38,648 nucleotides of DNA from Bacteroidales bacterium (GTDB taxonomy: Bacteria; Bacteroidota; Bacteroidia; Bacteroidales; F082), in contig JAFWRA010000121.1 of NCBI GenBank assembly GCA_017508895.1, forward strand, positions 1 to 38,648, written 5' to 3'. The notes under the pieces are model-generated. The model was not told the DNA's origin. It saw only the letters and a program-made list of their open reading frames with translations, and ran no database searches. Positions 6,328-38,648 of this stretch are shown one piece after another (positions within the stretch are counted from its first letter, which is position 1; each line of letters starts with the position of its first letter). The position numbers and the translations under genes are program-made.

Positions 6328-7614
6328 TTATGATTCAAACTTACGAGAGACCAAATCCTTGAGTTTCTGATAGGCCTCGTTGCTGCTGTTCCACTGCAAC
6401 TCAATCTTCAACTCATTCAAGTATATCATGGCACCGTTCAAGGTCTTCAAGTCGTTGAGGTTTTCGATGGACTTGTTGTATTTTTCCATGCTTCCTCCAA
6501 ACAACTCATTGACGAACAAGAACTTGTCATTGATTCCTATGGCCGATTTCAGGTCACGGGCTGGAGCCTGCTGCAACTTGGCAGCCAATGAATGGTCTTC
6601 CCCCATCATCTTTTCGCCAAGAGTCTCGCCTGTCGCCATCTCAAATTCGGTGTCGTCACGCTTGAAGACGTCTTCATACTCTGAAGGTGCCGAATGCTCA
6701 ATCTCTTCCGGCTTCATGTCCCAAAGACCCGTCTCCGTCCCGTAAGCGCCGCTTTTATTCTCATGTTCCATCTTAGGCATCTCGAAAGGATTGTCCCTCA
6801 CCAGACTCTCACCATCCACCAGGTCGCGTTCGGGGATCTCCTCTTCAGGAATCTCCTCCACAAAATGAACGACCCGCTCTTCCACTGCCGCAGGACTCTC
6901 CTCAACCGCAACCACTTCTTCAACTTCCGGCTCTTCTTCTATTGTCGGCTCCTCTATTGTTGGTTCTTCTATTGTCAGCTCTTCTTCTACTGCCGGTTCT
7001 TCTATAGTCAGCTCTTCTTCTATTGTCGGCACAGCCATGTCGTCTGTGGTCTCTTCAGGTTTCTCCTCTTCCTGCGCGGGGACGTCCTCAAAACGGAAGA
7101 AAAGTCCTAACTCATCGCCCTCGGGGTTCTTTTCTGGTTCACGATTGAAATCGATTGCTTCACTCTCAACAAGTTGGGGAGTCGTAACCTCAATGGGCTC
7201 TTCTTCCAAAACGAGGGTTTCCTCCTCAGGTTCCTCTTGAGTGACCTCTTCGGGTACTGATGCAGGCGTTTCCTCCGCCACATTCTCCACATTCACAACG
7301 GGTTCCGCTGGTTCTTCTTGTGCTGGGGTTTCCACCTTTTCCTCGGCGTCCTCATTGCCTTGCATCATCGGAGCAAACAAGCTCGAAAAGGCTTCAGAAT
7401 CGATATCCATTTCCTCATCGTCGCCGTTTTCGCCCAAATTGACGGAACAAAGGAGGTCATAAACCGTGTGAGTGCGGTTCATCAGCACATCCAAATCAAG
7501 CAGCCCGAGAGGTTTTTCGTTCCTCAGAAGATAGTTGACCTGTTGATGTAACAGACTGATTTCATGCTTTATGGCAAGCAATTTTTCTTTTTGATTCTCA
7601 AAAATGTCGTTCAT
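6328..7614 (-). CDS. Acidic coiled-coil protein with conserved C-terminal domain, Bacteroidales-type hypothetical
   Basis: A 428-residue cytoplasmic protein. Residues 1-40 form a likely coiled coil (NQKEKLLAIKHEISLLHQQV). Residues 60-300 are low-complexity and Glu-rich, including near-repeats of EEELTIEEP. The last 80 residues are a helical domain containing LKSAIGINDKFLFVNELF and YNKSIENLNDLKTLNGAMIYL. From memory, similar C-termini occur in Bacteroidales hypothetical proteins near cell-envelope genes, but no function is assigned. I chose the ATG at 7614 because upstream residues look random. The Glu-rich repeats are coded by short near-identical DNA units that could vary by slippage. Confidence 0.75.
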   Translation of the reverse strand: MNDIFENQKEKLLAIKHEISLLHQQVNYLLRNEKPLGLLDLDVLMNRTHTVYDLLCSVNLGENGDDEEMDIDSEAFSSLFAPMMQGNEDAEEKVETPAQEEPAEPVVNVENVAEETPASVPEEVTQEEPEEETLVLEEEPIEVTTPQLVESEAIDFNREPEKNPEGDELGLFFRFEDVPAQEEEKPEETTDDMAVPTIEEELTIEEPAVEEELTIEEPTIEEPTIEEEPEVEEVVAVEESPAAVEERVVHFVEEIPEEEIPERDLVDGESLVRDNPFEMPKMEHENKSGAYGTETGLWDMKPEEIEHSAPSEYEDVFKRDDTEFEMATGETLGEKMMGEDHSLAAKLQQAPARDLKSAIGINDKFLFVNELFGGSMEKYNKSIENLNDLKTLNGAMIYLNELKIELQWNSSNEAYQKLKDLVSRKFES

Positions 7615-7628
7615 ATATGAATTATCTT

Positions 7629-7636
7629 TATTTTTG
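7629..7636 (+). promoter_or_regulatory. Possible -7 box TATTTTTG for tdk
   Basis: TATTTTTG fits TAnnTTTG, 106 nt upstream of the tdk ATG. No good -33 element is seen, so this is tentative. Confidence 0.3.
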
Positions 7637-7638
7637 TG

Positions 7639-7682
7639 CTTCGACAAGCTCAGCAACTGCTTTGAATAGTTCAGCAACCGCT
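7639..7682. repeat. Dispersed TTCGACAAGCTCAGC-type repeat
   Basis: CTTCGACAAGCTCAGC begins at 7639. TCAGCAAC[T/C]GCT occurs twice, 21 bp apart (7650 and 7671). The core matches, with one change, the inverse of GAGCCTGTCGAAG at 28123. CCGCTT...AAGCGG forms a further small inverted repeat just after it. It lies in the gap between two divergent genes. Confidence 0.5.
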
Positions 7683-9600: not shown

Positions 9601-9606
9601 ATTTTA

Positions 9607-9699
9607 ATGCGGAATGCTGTATGCGGAATGCTGAATGCGGGATGTGGAATGTGGAATGCGGAATGACAAATTCATTCAGCATTCAACATTCATAATTCA
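9607..9699. repeat. Long heptad array with inverted halves
   Basis: Nine successive 7-mers of the form ATGNNGN (ATGCGGA, ATGCTGT, ATGCGGA and so on) run from 9607 to about 9669. They are followed by TTCANNA heptads (TTCAGCA, TTCAACA, TTCATAA, TTCATCA) to 9699. GAATGCTGAATG (9626-9637) and CATTCAGCATTC (9673-9684) are perfect inverses, so the transcript could fold into a large hairpin between the M64 and cvpA genes. Confidence 0.75.
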
Positions 9700-10968
9700 T
9701 CATTTGGAATAATAAAGTATCATCCGTTCAATAGCGCGTTGGCAAACGGGGCAGAAATCATCGCCTTTGAAGGTCTTCATCAAGCAGTCCATGCGGGGAC
9801 TATAGACGCCTTCGGGCTCATAACCTCCGCCTTCAAAGACCCCGACCGAGTTCTCATACTTTTGCTCGCGTGGCGTGGGCACTGGCGTTTTCTTGTCCAT
9901 CATGTTCTTCCACTTCGCGTCAAAGTTGACGAGGGTAGTGATGTTGGGCTCCCAAGGCTCCAGGTCGTTATTGTACATGTCGCCATAGGTGTCGTCGTCG
10001 TAATACTCATCGGCCAAACCTGCAAAACCATGCCCGAACTCATGAATGATGACATCGCTCGAGAAGCCGTTGCTGCTTGCGCTGGAGCAATAGAAGTTGT
10101 AAATGCCGCCACCGCCGTATTTCTCCGTGTTGACGAGGATATATATCTGGTCGTAAGGCACTTGTCCAGCCAAATCGCGGATGTCGCGGTTGTCGGTACT
10201 CATGCAATAACGCTCTGAGTCGAAGGTCCAAAAGCTGAAACGCATGACCGTATTCTTATAAATATGGTCGCCCGGCATGGTGCAGCCCGACTCGGCTGAA
10301 GGCGCCATCACGCCACGGATGTTGAAGCTCTCGCGATAACGGTCATAGGGTGCGTAGCTAAACATGCTCTTCACAAAGAAGTCGCAGTCTTTGATGAACT
10401 TGCCCATCTCGGCTTGGGTATAGCCCTCTGGGAGTATCACGATGTCAACGGCTTTGGTGATGTCCTTGTTGCCAATCCACGCATCGTAAACTGGCAAATC
10501 GAGTTTGTCATAATCGCGGATGAAATAGTCATCAGGGTTGACCGTGAAGCGCATCCCTTCCTTGAGCTGTCCCTCCCAGGTCTTGTAGCACAAGGCGATG
10601 TCAATCTTCACCTTAGGGAAAGGCACGATGACGGATTCCTCGAAAGTTTTGGTGACTTGCTTGGCTTCATCGGTAGTCTGCCACTCGCCGTAGAGGTTTT
10701 GGTAGCCTTTGGAAAACAGCAGTTTATCCGTTCCCGACGCATACACTTTGACGATGTAACTGCCAAACTCCAGGTTGTCAATGAGGTTGATTTTCGAGCC
10801 GCTCCAATAAGGCTCACGAATCAGCTCCTTGAGGGAATAGTTGGTCTCGTTGTGGTTGCCCGTCAGGCAATAGTCGACGCGCAGGGAGGATTCGGTGAAA
10901 TACTGGTCAAATTGCGCCCAAGCCATCATCGGCAACAGGGCAAGGAGGATCAAAAAGGGTTTCTTCAT
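9700..10968 (-). CDS. Peptidase M64 family secreted metalloprotease
   Basis: A 422-residue exported protein with a signal peptide ending MMAWAQ (residue 19). An N-terminal beta domain (residues 20-150) includes VDYCLTGNHNETNYSL. The catalytic domain starts near DIVILPEGYTQ (residue 175). The zinc motif HEFGHGFAGLADEY at residues 309-322 gives HExxH (His309, Glu310, His313) with the downstream Asp320. Cys residues near the C-terminus (DCLMKT, FCPVCQRAIE) are typical. Family members include IgA-cleaving enzymes, but the substrate cannot be inferred here. The start at 10968 is chosen because it begins the signal peptide; the open frame extends 48 bases further. It is divergent from the lipoprotein gene at 11053. 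Confidence 0.92.
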   Translation of the reverse strand: MKKPFLILLALLPMMAWAQFDQYFTESSLRVDYCLTGNHNETNYSLKELIREPYWSGSKINLIDNLEFGSYIVKVYASGTDKLLFSKGYQNLYGEWQTTDEAKQVTKTFEESVIVPFPKVKIDIALCYKTWEGQLKEGMRFTVNPDDYFIRDYDKLDLPVYDAWIGNKDITKAVDIVILPEGYTQAEMGKFIKDCDFFVKSMFSYAPYDRYRESFNIRGVMAPSAESGCTMPGDHIYKNTVMRFSFWTFDSERYCMSTDNRDIRDLAGQVPYDQIYILVNTEKYGGGGIYNFYCSSASSNGFSSDVIIHEFGHGFAGLADEYYDDDTYGDMYNNDLEPWEPNITTLVNFDAKWKNMMDKKTPVPTPREQKYENSVGVFEGGGYEPEGVYSPRMDCLMKTFKGDDFCPVCQRAIERMILYYSK

Positions 10969-16384: not shown

Positions 16385-16390
16385 TTATTA

Positions 16391-16437
16391 TTCAAGATTT
16401 AATATTCAAAATTCAAAGATTCAAAATTCAAGATTCT
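16391..16437. repeat. Heptad repeat, ATTCAAA units
   Basis: Successive ATTCAAA/ATTCAAG heptads with one extra G after two perfect units. A 28-bp core matches 22844-22873 with one change, including the extra G. The array runs into the last codons and stop of the biotin carboxylase gene. Confidence 0.75.
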
Positions 16438-22839: not shown

Positions 22840-22877
22840 TAAGATTCAAAATTCAAAGATTTAAAATTCAAAATTCA
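22840..22877. repeat. Heptad repeat, ATTCAAA units, second copy
   Basis: ATTTAAG, ATTCAAA, ATTCAAA, G, ATTTAAA, ATTCAAA, ATTCAGT. The order and the single-G interruption repeat those at 16391-16437. It fills the fabD-folE gap and includes the folE stop. Confidence 0.75.
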
Positions 22878-29730: not shown

Positions 29731-31254
29731 TTAATTTGTTTTGTCTACAATGAGGCGCAAAGTTTGTGTTTTTCCTTCATGATCAGCAATTTTCAGAAGA
29801 TAAGTTCCAATAGCCAATTTCTGCACGTTTGCTTCATTCCCCTGGAAACTCATGACGCATTGGCCCAAAGCGTTGTAGATATGAGATTCCTTGGCCTCAA
29901 CACCACCAATCTTAAGGGTTCCTTTGGCAGGATTGGGATAGACAAACGCCATGTTCTCTTCTTGGATTTCGTCAAGCCCGACTGTACCATCGGCATCGAT
30001 TTTCAAGGCAAAAACATCTTGACACAATTCTGGATTATGGTCATACACATTGCCAACAATCAGACAACCTCCATCTGAGGTGGCCATGGTTTGAAAGGCA
30101 GAATATATATTTCCATCCTTCATAAAACGTTTCTGCCACAAAACATTCAAATCTGGATCTGTTTTTGTAACCACAAGATGAGTTCCATTACTTCCGTAAG
30201 GCCATGAACTAAAAATGATGTTTTGCATGGAACACTGAAATACCATTCCGTTTTCATTGATGTCCACAGACCTATAAAAAGAAGGGGCCTCAACCGTGTC
30301 ATTCAAGTGCCCAATGATACAATACTGAGGGCATATTTGAAAGGCAGAATCCGTTTTTGCCAAGACAGAAGACTGGTCATCCACGATTGTGGTCCCAGCC
30401 AAAGAAGTTTCGTTTAAACGAGATGAAATGTAATATCCTCCATCGGGAGAAGGGCACATCATACTATTATATAGGGATAGGTCGCCCATATAAACATTAC
30501 CATGCCCATCGTCTTCATACCAATTGGAAATATCGTATATTCCTTTCAACTGAAGGTCAGCATCATACAACATTGCACATGAATTGACATGTGTGCCCTG
30601 AATCTGCCGTTTGCGGAGAAATATGCCAAATCCAGTCGAATCATCATGGATATGAAATATATTCGCCACGTAAGAAGCCAAGGAATCTTCCATTCTCTCA
30701 ACTTGAGTCACAATGCCTTCATTGGAAATCTTGCATAACTTGATTTCTTTTTCAGTCAATTGCCCCCGATAGCTTAATAGAGCAAAATAGCCATCCGTCG
30801 TCTGTAAAAACCTATAGTCATCCAACCAGTAATCCATGCTATCGGAATTTGGCAACGAAGCCATCGAGCGGCTTAATACGTTCAAATCGCCATCAATACG
30901 AAGTGTCAATAACATGGCAGAGTCGTCAGAGGTTGTGCAAACGGCCAGCCCCTCTACACTTCCACTATCACCAGTAGACGGGAAAAGGTTGCAGAGATTA
31001 ATAGCAGTGTCTGTTGCAGATAGACACATTTCGCCGAGAAAGACCCCTTCTGAAGACATTTTAATCACCTTGCTCTCCTTTTTCAAAGAAGACTGATTTC
31101 TGAGTGAAAGCATAAAACCGTTTTCCGTTTCAAGAACATCACCTACCCTCCACGTTTTTCTATCGGGATCTGAAAATGTATGATAAAACCCTTGTTGAGA
31201 AAATGAATCCAGACACATGATAATGAATAAAAATGTTAGCGCGGATTTCTTCAT
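29731..31254 (-). CDS. Secreted protein with T9SS type A sorting domain
   Basis: A 507-residue protein with a short signal peptide ending CLDSFSQ. The body (about 25-420) has repeated beta-strand units (DGYFALLSYRG, DGGYYISSRL, DGGCLIVGNVYD) like a beta-propeller with Asp-Gly-Gly turns. The C-terminal 85 residues are a T9SS CTD: FVYPNPAKGTLKIGG, IYNALGQCV, and LAIGTYLLKIAD, which directs export and surface attachment. The ligand or enzyme activity is unknown. A 20-bp tandem duplication lies just upstream. It sits between two lipoprotein genes on the same strand. Confidence 0.85.
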   Translation of the reverse strand: MKKSALTFLFIIMCLDSFSQQGFYHTFSDPDRKTWRVGDVLETENGFMLSLRNQSSLKKESKVIKMSSEGVFLGEMCLSATDTAINLCNLFPSTGDSGSVEGLAVCTTSDDSAMLLTLRIDGDLNVLSRSMASLPNSDSMDYWLDDYRFLQTTDGYFALLSYRGQLTEKEIKLCKISNEGIVTQVERMEDSLASYVANIFHIHDDSTGFGIFLRKRQIQGTHVNSCAMLYDADLQLKGIYDISNWYEDDGHGNVYMGDLSLYNSMMCPSPDGGYYISSRLNETSLAGTTIVDDQSSVLAKTDSAFQICPQYCIIGHLNDTVEAPSFYRSVDINENGMVFQCSMQNIIFSSWPYGSNGTHLVVTKTDPDLNVLWQKRFMKDGNIYSAFQTMATSDGGCLIVGNVYDHNPELCQDVFALKIDADGTVGLDEIQEENMAFVYPNPAKGTLKIGGVEAKESHIYNALGQCVMSFQGNEANVQKLAIGTYLLKIADHEGKTQTLRLIVDKTN

Positions 31255-32423: not shown

Positions 32424-34178
32424 TCATTCCTTTACAAACTTGCCATAATAGACAATTCCTGAGCTGCATTTCACGCGTACCACATACATTCCTTTGTGTA
32501 GCGCCGAAACATCAATGTTGTCATGGGCATTATCATCTTTTAGCACCATACCACCCATAATATTGAACACTTCAACAAAAGTCACCTTTTCCGAGGGGTT
32601 ACCTATTTGGATACTAAATGAACCTGTGACGGGATTGGGGAAGATAACCATTCCCAAAGGCGAAACCGAGGATGAGGTTTGATTATTGCATTCTATTTCT
32701 TGTTGTACCCTTTCATCCGACAATTCAGACAAATAATCACCTTCCCCTCTTGAACTGCCACACGGAGCTATAATCGCGGTAAACTCCGATCCCTCAGCGG
32801 CATAAAAGCCGTCAGTTAGCAGTATCTCTTCGCCCGCTTGGAGATGAACACTTGCGCCGCTATTTATCACATAATTGTGATAATTGTTGCTGAAACGATT
32901 CTGGGCTGAATAGTACTTTGAAACATTTACAGCAAATATCCTATTACATTGCATGATGATGTTCTCCCAACAATCTGTAGGATAAATACTACATATTATG
33001 CTGTGATTATAATTGAAAGCATAATTATCCGGACACAAGTTTGAAATTGTATAAAGTCCATCAAAATTACCTCTCCAACCCCAATTAAAATGAAAATATT
33101 GATTATCGTTCTCATCTTTATAATACCCATCGCACACAAAAGCATGACCAACCCCATAAGAAATATCATGGCCAACATAATAAATCGGTCGATTGTTGAA
33201 CAATTCCTGAAACAGTTTACTCATCCAAACATTATCATCTGAAGCGCGTGTTGCAATACTAGAATTTGTGAATCCATAATTATGAAAACCATTTTTCGCA
33301 CCATAAATAGTGTTTCCGGAACTACATGGATCATTACTTAAGCCGCTACAATAGTTCATTCCTGCTTCAACCCCACATTCGTGTATCAGTTTTGCAACAG
33401 CATTCCTTTGATTGGTATAACTACTATTGTTTTGCTTAAACAATTTGTCTGGCATATTATTCCAATCAAATTGAGCGCAGACAGAAGGATTGTCAACGGG
33501 CTCATTCCAGTATTTCATAATTTGTGCCATAGCAACGGCTCCACATCCAGCAAGACAATGTTGTGGGCAGTCGGTTCCATTTGGAACCTCGTAATTATAA
33601 GCATAATAATCTATTTGCGACAAGATTGTGTCATTAGATCTGCTCTGTCCCCATCGGGTTGATATCAACGGAGGAATAACGACAACCGTCGTCGATTTGT
33701 CCATTTTCTCTTGTTGCAACCCATCCCATAACATATTAGTTATTTCATTTTCAACATTATTGTCAAAACAATATCTATTCTGTTCCGCATAATTGTTAAG
33801 CAACAATTTTAATCCATCCGGAACATCTTCACCGAACAAAAAAGCAGATTCTATTTGTGTGGATTCGATAGTGCAAGAATCCACATATCCCAAGACAGGC
33901 AAACAAGACTTATTCCCCGAAAGAAACACTTTCTGACCATTTTTGAAGCAAACCTCATAAATCAAGCAATTGCCTTTTTCTTCCAGAGAGAAGACGCCAG
34001 AAACAGATGATTCCGAAAAACTTGCTGATTTTTCCGGGTATTTCCTAATCATACCGCCAATAGCAGCCTTAACAGCCTCTTTCTGTGATACTTGCTGTGC
34101 TGACACTTCAAAGACCAACAGCAGCACAAACAACAACCACATCCCTTTCCTAATAGATTGTGAGTACTTCATTTTCAT
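32424..34178 (-). CDS. C10 family cysteine protease (streptopain type) with T9SS sorting domain
   Basis: A 584-residue secreted protease. Signal peptide ends VFEVSAQ (residue 28). A SpeB-type propeptide (30-170) contains QKVFLSGNKSCLPVLGYVD. The catalytic domain carries CLAGCGAVAMAQIMKYW (nucleophile Cys212), GVGHAFVCDGYY (His345) and FHFNWGWRGNFDG, the usual C10 motifs; the Gly after Cys212 replaces the more common Val. The C-terminal 85 residues form a T9SS CTD (VIFPNPVTGSFSIQIG, ALHKGMYVVRVKC). Its start overlaps the stop of the upstream lipoprotein gene by 4 bases. Relatives include interpain and Bacteroides Bfp proteases. Confidence 0.93.
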   Translation of the reverse strand: MKMKYSQSIRKGMWLLFVLLLVFEVSAQQVSQKEAVKAAIGGMIRKYPEKSASFSESSVSGVFSLEEKGNCLIYEVCFKNGQKVFLSGNKSCLPVLGYVDSCTIESTQIESAFLFGEDVPDGLKLLLNNYAEQNRYCFDNNVENEITNMLWDGLQQEKMDKSTTVVVIPPLISTRWGQSRSNDTILSQIDYYAYNYEVPNGTDCPQHCLAGCGAVAMAQIMKYWNEPVDNPSVCAQFDWNNMPDKLFKQNNSSYTNQRNAVAKLIHECGVEAGMNYCSGLSNDPCSSGNTIYGAKNGFHNYGFTNSSIATRASDDNVWMSKLFQELFNNRPIYYVGHDISYGVGHAFVCDGYYKDENDNQYFHFNWGWRGNFDGLYTISNLCPDNYAFNYNHSIICSIYPTDCWENIIMQCNRIFAVNVSKYYSAQNRFSNNYHNYVINSGASVHLQAGEEILLTDGFYAAEGSEFTAIIAPCGSSRGEGDYLSELSDERVQQEIECNNQTSSSVSPLGMVIFPNPVTGSFSIQIGNPSEKVTFVEVFNIMGGMVLKDDNAHDNIDVSALHKGMYVVRVKCSSGIVYYGKFVKE

Positions 34179-37906: not shown

Positions 37907-37917
37907 AATAGTAATTT

Positions 37918-38031
37918 CACGTTTTTGAGGTTAAAAAACAGCCTATTTTTCACGTTTTTGACTTTAATTTCTGTGCAAAATTACACGTTTTTGAGGTTAT
38001 TGCAACACAAAAAACACACTTTTTTGAGGTT
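37918..38031 (-). repeat. Four direct repeats phased at exactly 33 bp
   Basis: CACGTTTTTGAGGTT at 37918, CACGTTTTTGACTTT at 37951, CACGTTTTTGAGGTT at 37984 and CACTTTTTTGAGGTT at 38017. Starts are 33 bp apart each time; the 18-nt spacers differ from each other. On the coding strand of the ATPase gene the unit reads AACCTCAAAAACGTG. Copy 1 ends 11 bases from the ATG. One copy lies between the -33 and -7 boxes. Confidence 0.92.
37976..38005 (-). promoter_or_regulatory. Promoter of the ATPase gene, within the repeat array
   Basis: TTG (38005-38003), 19 nt, then TAATTTTG (37983-37976) on the minus strand. Repeat copy 3 fills the spacer, copy 4 lies upstream of the -33 box and copies 2 and 1 downstream of the start site, as expected for operators. 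Confidence 0.75.
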
Positions 38032-38079
38032 TCGCAATTTTTGAAGAAGAAATCTTCGTGCCATTTTGTCAGTTTTTCG

Positions 38080-38187: not shown

Positions 38188-38648
38188 ATGAAAATCTCCT
38201 ACAACTGGTTGAAACAATACGTCAACTGCGATTATCCGGCCGAGAAAGTCAGCGAACTGCTCACCTCCACGGGCCTCGAAGTGGAAGACCTCGAACGTTT
38301 TGAGTCGGTGAAGGGCGCCTTGAAAGGAGTCGTCGTGGGTAAAGTGCTCACCTGCATCGACCACCCCAACTCCGACCACCTGCATATCACCACCGTCGAC
38401 GTCGGCGGCGAAGAGCCCTTGCACATCGTGTGCGGCGCACCCAATGTAGCGGCTGGTCAGAAGGTGCTCGTAGCCACCATCAACACCGAGCTTTGGATTG
38501 GCGACGAACATATCACCATCAAGAAAGGCAAGATCCGTGGCGAAGTCTCGGAAGGCATGATTTGCGCCGAGGACGAGCTGCAACTCGGCACCTCGCACGA
38601 CGGCATCATGGTGCTGCCCGACGACTATGAAGTGGGCAAGCCCGCATC
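38188..38648 (+). CDS. pheT: Phenylalanyl-tRNA synthetase beta subunit, N-terminal part (cut by window end)
   Basis: 153 residues are visible. MKISYNWLKQYVNCDYPAEKVSELLTSTGLEVEDLE is the standard PheT start. A tRNA-binding OB domain follows (VVVGKVLTCIDHPNSDHLHITTVDVG, HIVCGAPNVAAGQKVLVA). KKGKIRGEVSEGMICAEDELQLG is also characteristic. It charges tRNA-Phe together with PheS. The start ATG is the first in frame after the leader palindromes. The frame is open to the window end. Confidence 0.95.
   Translation, partial: MKISYNWLKQYVNCDYPAEKVSELLTSTGLEVEDLERFESVKGALKGVVVGKVLTCIDHPNSDHLHITTVDVGGEEPLHIVCGAPNVAAGQKVLVATINTELWIGDEHITIKKGKIRGEVSEGMICAEDELQLGTSHDGIMVLPDDYEVGKPA

Follow-up and report, generated by a model that had tools for sequence, protein, structure and literature searches.

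The window, as we call the whole stretch of 38,648 nucleotides analysed here, carries near its end the reverse-strand gene of a 450-residue ATPase, P0001 (36554..37906; AAA_14 and DUF4143 domains, from the ORF list and Pfam). Upstream of it the first-pass annotation had reported four copies of a 15-bp repeat, starting at 37918, 37951, 37984 and 38017 in exact 33-bp steps, and a repeat search of the window sees the same array again, as one family of four copies at 37913-38032 with spacings of 33/33/33. The sequence AACCTCAAAAACGTG has seven matches in the whole window at up to three mismatches, where the shuffle mean is 1.58 and none of 100 shuffles reaches seven. When both strands were scanned in tiles for chains at 31-35 bp with a score above 10, the ATPase array was the best place in the window. 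The second place is a 33-nt tandem repeat at about 6920-7030, within the reverse-strand ORF 6328-7677, for which the Pfam scan gave no match.

The copies, all taken on the reverse strand, are arranged across the promoter and leader of the ATPase gene. Putative operator copy 4 (38017..38031, AACCTCAAAAAAGTG, one mismatch) lies upstream of the promoter. Copy 3 (37984..37998, AACCTCAAAAACGTG with no mismatch) occupies the whole spacer between the TTG of the -33 element (38003..38005, reverse strand) and the -7 box TAATTTTG (37976..37983, reverse strand), which comes immediately after the copy and has the TTG 19 nt upstream of it. Copy 2 (37951..37965, AAAGTCAAAAACGTG, two mismatches) falls in the 5′ UTR or at the predicted transcript start, and copy 1 (37918..37932, again AACCTCAAAAACGTG with no mismatch) is in the 5′ UTR, with the ATG 11 nt beyond its end. 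Both promoter elements were read from the sequence by the Bacteroidetes -33/-7 consensus, and the overlap of repeats and promoter described earlier is borne out. The accompanying claim, that the copies sit three helical turns apart on one face of the DNA, is not: it holds at 11 bp per turn only. At 10.5 bp per turn 33 bp is 3.14 turns, and the 33-34 bp found across the clade correspond to 3.14-3.24 turns, which takes the copies off a strictly common face. We do not accept one-face phasing as it was put, since neither spacing is a multiple of 10.5. The divergent neighbour with a tRNA_bind domain (38188..38646, forward strand; ORF list and Pfam), presumably pheT, continues past the window end and is outside the unit formed by array and ATPase.

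P0001 matches DUF4143 with 79.9 bits (cut-off 28.1) and AAA_14 with 77.8 bits (cut-off 27), and both domains are matched in 65/65 aligned members. Above cut-off the protein has just these ATPase and DUF4143 matches; no Rep or transposase domain was found in it, with TniB at E 0.039. Curated NCBI families gave no match, and the search for structurally solved relatives returned none by sequence (sole match E 1) or by profile (best E 0.24). We take the DUF4143/AAA_14 ATPases of this kind to be of the COG1373 type. Judged by its profile matches, P0001 is the PADLOC phage-defence candidate PDC-S01 (PDLC04792 at E 1.5e-114 and PDLC04786 at 1.4e-112). Residues resembling a PD-(D/E)XK site are kept among the aligned relatives (E379 in 63/65, D381 in 65/65, E399 in 64/65 and K401 in 65/65), and weak NERD matches occur in 17 of the 65 aligned members. 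On these alignments the acidic residues and the E-x-K motif are intact, and the protein is a putative nuclease.

PDC-S01 itself has been presented as the fusion of an ATPase with a PD-(D/E)XK member. It is reported to be the fourth most common prokaryotic defence system, with 29,494 bacterial and 9,986 archaeal instances, and validation is said to be pending for most such candidates (PMC12988326, available portions). In a rumen set it is reported to outnumber every other single locus, at 10,358 (PMC13356809, available portions). P0001 resembles the family in its full-length match to PDLC04792. What the available portions of these two accounts (PMC12988326, PMC13356809) describe is without operators, self-recognition or a residue-base code.

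Homologues were sought in 149 genomes of the same bacterial family, and at least 97 of these have one at E 1e-30. The family sample comprises the window, 30 loci returned by the search and 80 chosen loci (60 next-best, 20 more distant); with the partial locus L052 left out, these 111 become 110. A second sample, from named genomes, holds the best 80 of 535 relatives. By their record titles, these best 80 of 535 span Bacteroidales, Lachnospiraceae and other Clostridia, Bacilli and Bifidobacterium, and also include Mobiluncus, Collinsella, Treponema, Fibrobacter, Fusobacteriaceae and others.

When the 250 nt upstream of each gene are matched to themselves, the best lag is 32-34 bp in 107/110 family homologues, and it is 33 or 34 bp in 76/80 named-genome loci (best 80 of 535). 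Lag 32-34 together with a score of at least 13 is found in 100/110 and 59/80 (best 80 of 535) respectively, and in 1/2180 Markov shuffles. A chain detector, its cut-off set from 216 shuffled regions at their 99% point, accepts 102/110 family homologues and 63/80 named-genome loci (best 80 of 535). The repeats are therefore not missing upstream of close homologues, as the first-pass annotation had allowed they might be: arrays precede 165 of the 190 clade genes. The arrays consist of 2-6 direct copies, mostly 3-4 (three in 67 family and 47 named-genome genes, four in 28 and 13), at 31-34 bp and nearly all at 33 or 34. Counted over the family and the named genomes respectively, spacings of 33 bp number 187 and 93, of 34 bp 40 and 41, of 32 bp 10 and 1, and of 31 bp 1 and 1. 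The last copy stands a median of 21 nt from the start codon (n=165). The remaining 25/190 genes are at or below the detector cut-off; most of them retain two poor copies by eye, and for L117, L209 and L238 inspection by eye of the upstream region found repeats absent or nearly so.

Upstream regions of other genes at the same loci served as controls, 202 of them after 144 had been dropped because they belonged to P-loop ATPase genes or shared DNA with an ATPase upstream region. Chains occur in 2/202 and lag 32-34 with a score of at least 13 in 3/202. The two chain owners are the truncated clade ATPase of L052 and a 426-aa AAA_14 + DUF4143 protein in L181, and the third control with the lag signal, in L208, is an AAA_14 protein. 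Before cleaning, 24/242 controls had lag 32-34 and a score of at least 13, a count inflated by divergent neighbours, whose upstream regions include the ATPase's array. The array geometry is thus a feature of the ATPase clade and not of this locus alone.

Some individual loci illustrate the range. The nearest genome has an 85%-identical orthologue with four copies at 33 bp, all of which read AATCT where three of the four in the window read AACCT. In Segatella copri DSM 18205 the homologue WP_006848557.1 is preceded by three copies of CRTCAAAACGTG at -90/-57/-24, with one change in the third. As for the promoter, TAnnTTTG is found somewhere within 200 nt in 38/43 main-clade genes; in 20/43 its first base directly adjoins the end of a repeat, and 0/43 have it at any of the remaining offsets examined (-1 to 7). 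Homologues on viral contigs exceed the cut-off in 20/23 cases, or 17/18 by distinct protein, and records labelled as plasmid or phage carry an array at 11/15 testable loci, L326 having given no usable start. Two of the plasmid loci, L322 and L331 (Parabacteroides and Phocaeicola), lack an array by the detector; by eye, each has two copies of AAGTGCGGAWAAATGTAT about two 33-bp steps apart.

Towards the edge of the family the picture is mixed. In the distant GARQ clade 7/28 have arrays. At L047, about -200 upstream, a divergently transcribed GARQ-type ATPase of 398 aa comes with a 33-bp array to itself, TTGCCTATGAATTAG, so that one intergenic region holds two private arrays. The 426-aa ATPase of L181, 5′ of 4170, belongs to another branch (GVRRSGKS) and has its own array at 32 bp beside the array gene. 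A phylum-wide search for DUF4143 supplied a further set, its best 30 loci (L147-L176), mostly GPRQSGK proteins of about 390 aa (384-424 aa, by choice of start). Among these best 30 loci, 0/30 have a direct-repeat chain above cut-off; 20/30 have an inverted repeat of 31-41 bp (at most 1/50 shuffles as good), and 18 of the 20 end within 17 nt of the start codon. In the 450-aa clade an inverted repeat was found in 4/190 (0/25 shuffles as good). With inverted repeats in one branch and direct repeats in the other, the DUF4143 family appears to use two putative operator geometries, palindrome or direct repeats. Within the ~390-aa set, L167, L169, L160 and L173 have repeats at 21-22 bp.

It is the geometry that is shared across the clade; the repeat sequence is not. 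Genomes could be tabled for 94/109 fetched loci, and 12 genomes with at least three tabled chain-bearing paralogues were used to compare paralogues. Inside one array the repeats are 0.93 identical (55 genes, 12 genomes), a value partly set by the chain detector itself. Between paralogues of one genome the identity is 0.51 at the best shift (117 pairs, 12 genomes), and 0/117 pairs reach 0.8. Each paralogue carries its own distinct repeat sequence, and geometry alone is shared. The earlier expectation that the motif would recur upstream of this ATPase clade at about 33 bp therefore stands for the spacing and fails for the 15-bp sequence. Such paralogues can be numerous: at least 16 of the 149 genomes, G001 and its genus included, have at least 10 or 11 ATPase matches, and up to 41 first-look ATPase candidates were seen in a single genome.

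The motif of the window also keeps to its own locus. In five related genomes the exact repeat has 10 sites, all in the array or its remnant, so that the random scatter which the first-pass annotation had considered was not seen. Strays with one mismatch number 1-3 per genome in the same five, 10 in total vs 4 for a reversed-pattern control, and in G001 there are 23 matches at up to two mismatches, four of them the array, vs 19 in the control. A few weak scattered sites may thus exist in related genomes. We have rejected a motif regulon: in the five related genomes, sites without mismatch are confined to the array or remnant. A pattern of two neighbouring copies has 12 matches in 7/149 genomes, the reversed control having 0 among the matches listed. 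All of the 12 lie at an intact ATPase (four genomes) or a broken one (three genomes: L055, L058 and L060), and none of the 12 pair matches in the 149 genomes is an array of the window motif in trans. In L055, L058 and L060 the arrays thus remain beside broken ATPase genes; in the L055 remnant a 12-bp deletion has abolished the 33-bp spacing between two copies.

Covariation is found between protein and motif. The starting set was the 98 chain-bearing genes whose products are at least 47% identical to P0001, and 77 of these fit one motif. The other 21, including a clade with a GCGCA motif, were set aside; two (L039, L204) re-entered, and with 13 more from a motif scan the main-clade set comes to 92 genes with an effective number of 58. 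Their motif is AA[TC]CT[TC]G-A-WWW-[CG]-GTG. Over the 92 genes, mutual information peaks where base 7 is paired with residue 371 (z 9.4) and base 8 with residue 369 (z 9.1). When residue 371 is R or K, base 7 is G in 38.2/39.2 weighted genes, and with other residues it is mostly A or C; Y369 goes with G at base 8 in 11/12, and S and A mostly with A. Among further pairs, G at base 13 accompanies R/K267, C at base 12 accompanies D/E/N265 in most cases, and C at base 4 accompanies R377.

Significance was gauged by simulating motif evolution on the protein tree and comparing over all columns. The signal was reached by 7/2000 simulated trees for 371 and 12/2000 for 369; an earlier run gave 0/400 for each, and a single-column test 0/2000. 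Corrected additionally for the 15 variable motif positions these become about 0.05 and about 0.09, which is borderline. The pairs at bases 4, 12, 13 and 16 are top-ranked for their base but weaker, the counts among the four being 133, 139, 273 and 349 of 2000 trees. For bases 3-8 the top column falls in 369-393 for three of six (the others are 399, 429 and 230), and for bases 9-13 and 16 it falls in 226-270 for five of six (the other is 89, R89 with base 11); both regions were named after the data had been seen. Base 17 is an exception and pairs with V111.

A second clade offers a comparison, with 52 genes less four near-duplicates giving 48 and an effective number of 32. Its top pair is column 370 with base 9 (p 0.025 over columns), where K goes with G in 13.0/13.0, T with A in 8.2/9.2, and N, D, H and S with C. 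Base 10 with column 69, outside both regions, has the same p of 0.025, a value that would not stand alone among the motif positions of this clade. Loci outside the rule-finding (L316-L321), with their register set by eye, agree with these pairings, apart from L319, which depends on the register. In L317, with Y369 and K371, bases 8 and 7 are both G, and in L316, with N369 and A371, they are A and C; C goes with N370 in L318, and G with K370 in both L320 and L321. What persuades us of the loop is that it recurs in a second clade and that basic residues pair with G, and these two points weigh more than either p-value. As far as alignments can tell, the strongest specificity signal is in loop 369-371, in the nuclease-like C-terminal part.

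We think it likely that the array is the operator of the ATPase itself, and that the ATPase reads the repeats and represses its own gene, privately for each paralogue. The first-pass annotation had already suggested that the ATPase binds the array, and computation favours this through the arrays at 165/190 genes, the private motifs and the covariation in two clades. Its further guess, that a winged-helix part does the reading, fares less well: weaker signals at 226-270 are in its favour, and the strongest lies elsewhere, in loop 369-371. In the mechanism that we propose, as the simplest account, the ATPase would read each repeat of about 16 bp directly. The left half would be read mainly by the loop at about 369-377, perhaps also by 388-393, beside the PD-(D/E)XK-like site, and the right half by the region at about 226-270, expected to be a helix-turn-helix. 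Because the specificity loop adjoins the PD-(D/E)XK-like motif, the reading head seems to include the nuclease fold, provided that the domain has one. Several ATPase molecules would oligomerise, perhaps cooperatively, on three or four sites, 33-34 bp apart and probably side by side, and would cover the -33/-7 promoter and the leader, turning off their own transcription. Paralogues would have diverged in protein and operators alike, so that each gene in a genome would answer to itself alone; as the protein residues change in step with the repeat, a gene copy probably recognises and switches off only itself.

Repression might be relieved by ATP hydrolysis or by a phage or plasmid signal. A Thermus relative, TT_P0211 (AAA 14, DUF4143), is up 6.6-fold in an Ago-positive strain that carries plasmid (PMC4406477, available portion); this rise is compatible with inducibility and is no evidence for the present mechanism. 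A more far-reaching version of autoregulation, which we put forward tentatively and consider doubtful, would make the protein a self-addressed, sequence-specific ATPase-nuclease, whose two-part evolvable code, made up of the nuclease-domain loop and a second region, locks its copies on the promoter and whose release both induces the gene and arms the nuclease. Release would follow a disturbance of the array by foreign DNA, by replication or by competing sites. Each of the many paralogues would keep an address to itself, and the ~390-aa branch, with its inverted repeats, would have the dimeric version of this device.

The array could instead be a depot or target. Its repeats would keep the ATPase-nuclease inactive until loss, titration or replication of the locus freed it as an addiction or defence nuclease, or it would attack incoming elements with the same address. 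The PD-(D/E)XK-like residues are kept beside the specificity loop, although repression by itself would not call for them; PADLOC lists the family as a defence candidate, and the paralogues are numerous with mutually distinct addresses. We nevertheless rate this as unlikely, since L055, L058 and L060 keep an array with a broken ATPase, from which it follows that loss of the gene is tolerated, and since autoregulation fully accounts for the way the array straddles the promoter.

An ATPase gene preceded by direct repeats, with homologues on plasmids and on phage-labelled contigs, also calls to mind iterons or a mobile-element end, so that gene and array would form a replication or transposition unit. 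The Rep genes of iteron plasmids have even direct repeats upstream that are bound by the gene product and double as autoregulation sites. P0001 resembles them in the even spacing of the direct repeats before its gene. It differs in that no Rep domain was found, in the spacing of 33-34 bp and in the private sequence of each paralogue. We hold this explanation to be very improbable: the protein is without a Rep or transposase domain, the gene or its array adjoins the same divergent neighbour as in the window in G001, G114, G029, G141 and the G138 remnant, and the position is tied to promoter and start codon.

Operator arrays for host regulators are common, and the repeats could be bound by a host transcription factor rather than by the ATPase. 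We find this scarcely credible, however, with paralogues of one genome having unrelated repeats, arrays accompanying the gene in many phyla, and repeats covarying with ATPase residues. The regular repeat-spacer look, with repeats of 15 nt and spacers of 18 nt, speaks for a miniature element of CRISPR type or an RNA element in the leader. This reading can be practically dismissed, given that Rfam at the gathering threshold finds one tRNA only in the whole window, that the promoter lies inside the spacers with copy 4 upstream of the -33 element, and that orthologue spacers are partly shared (40/54 and 33/54 identical, the repeats 56/60 and 51/60). In CRISPR arrays the repeats measure about 23-47 bp, each spacer is unique and Cas genes accompany the array; the likeness is in the regular repeats and differing spacers, whereas here the repeats are 15-16 bp in 2-6 copies with the promoter in the spacers, and no Cas family was found among the 23 window ORFs scanned against Pfam.

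Autoregulation by the ATPase, our preferred reading, would join a known theme, as autoregulation through repeated operators is already known. Restriction, toxin-antitoxin and phage repressors repress themselves through repeated sites, and immunity groups differ in their operators. The likeness is in the repeated sites at the promoter of the gene itself. Here, however, the putative regulator is an ATPase with a nuclease-like domain that holds the strongest specificity signal, and the sites are direct repeats at 33-34 bp kept across phyla. In the open-access literature we found no description of arrays upstream of these ATPases, which does not establish their absence from print. New in the literature searched are the clade-wide, paralogue-private and co-diverging array and the mapping of specificity to a nuclease-like domain. 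A candidate site together with a candidate reading code would give a direct handle on binding, repression and cleavage with a defined substrate. The paralogues would supply natural sets of mutually distinct protein-operator pairs, and the family may be a case of a nuclease fold serving sequence-specific gene control.

Elsewhere in the window, heptanucleotide tandem repeats (AATGCTG/AATGCGG; ATTCAAA) lie near ORF ends at 9606-9665, 16390-16436 and 22841-22877. A Peptidase C10 protein (32424-34178) and a second protein (29731-31254) each have a Por_Secre_tail domain, which we take to indicate type IX secretion.
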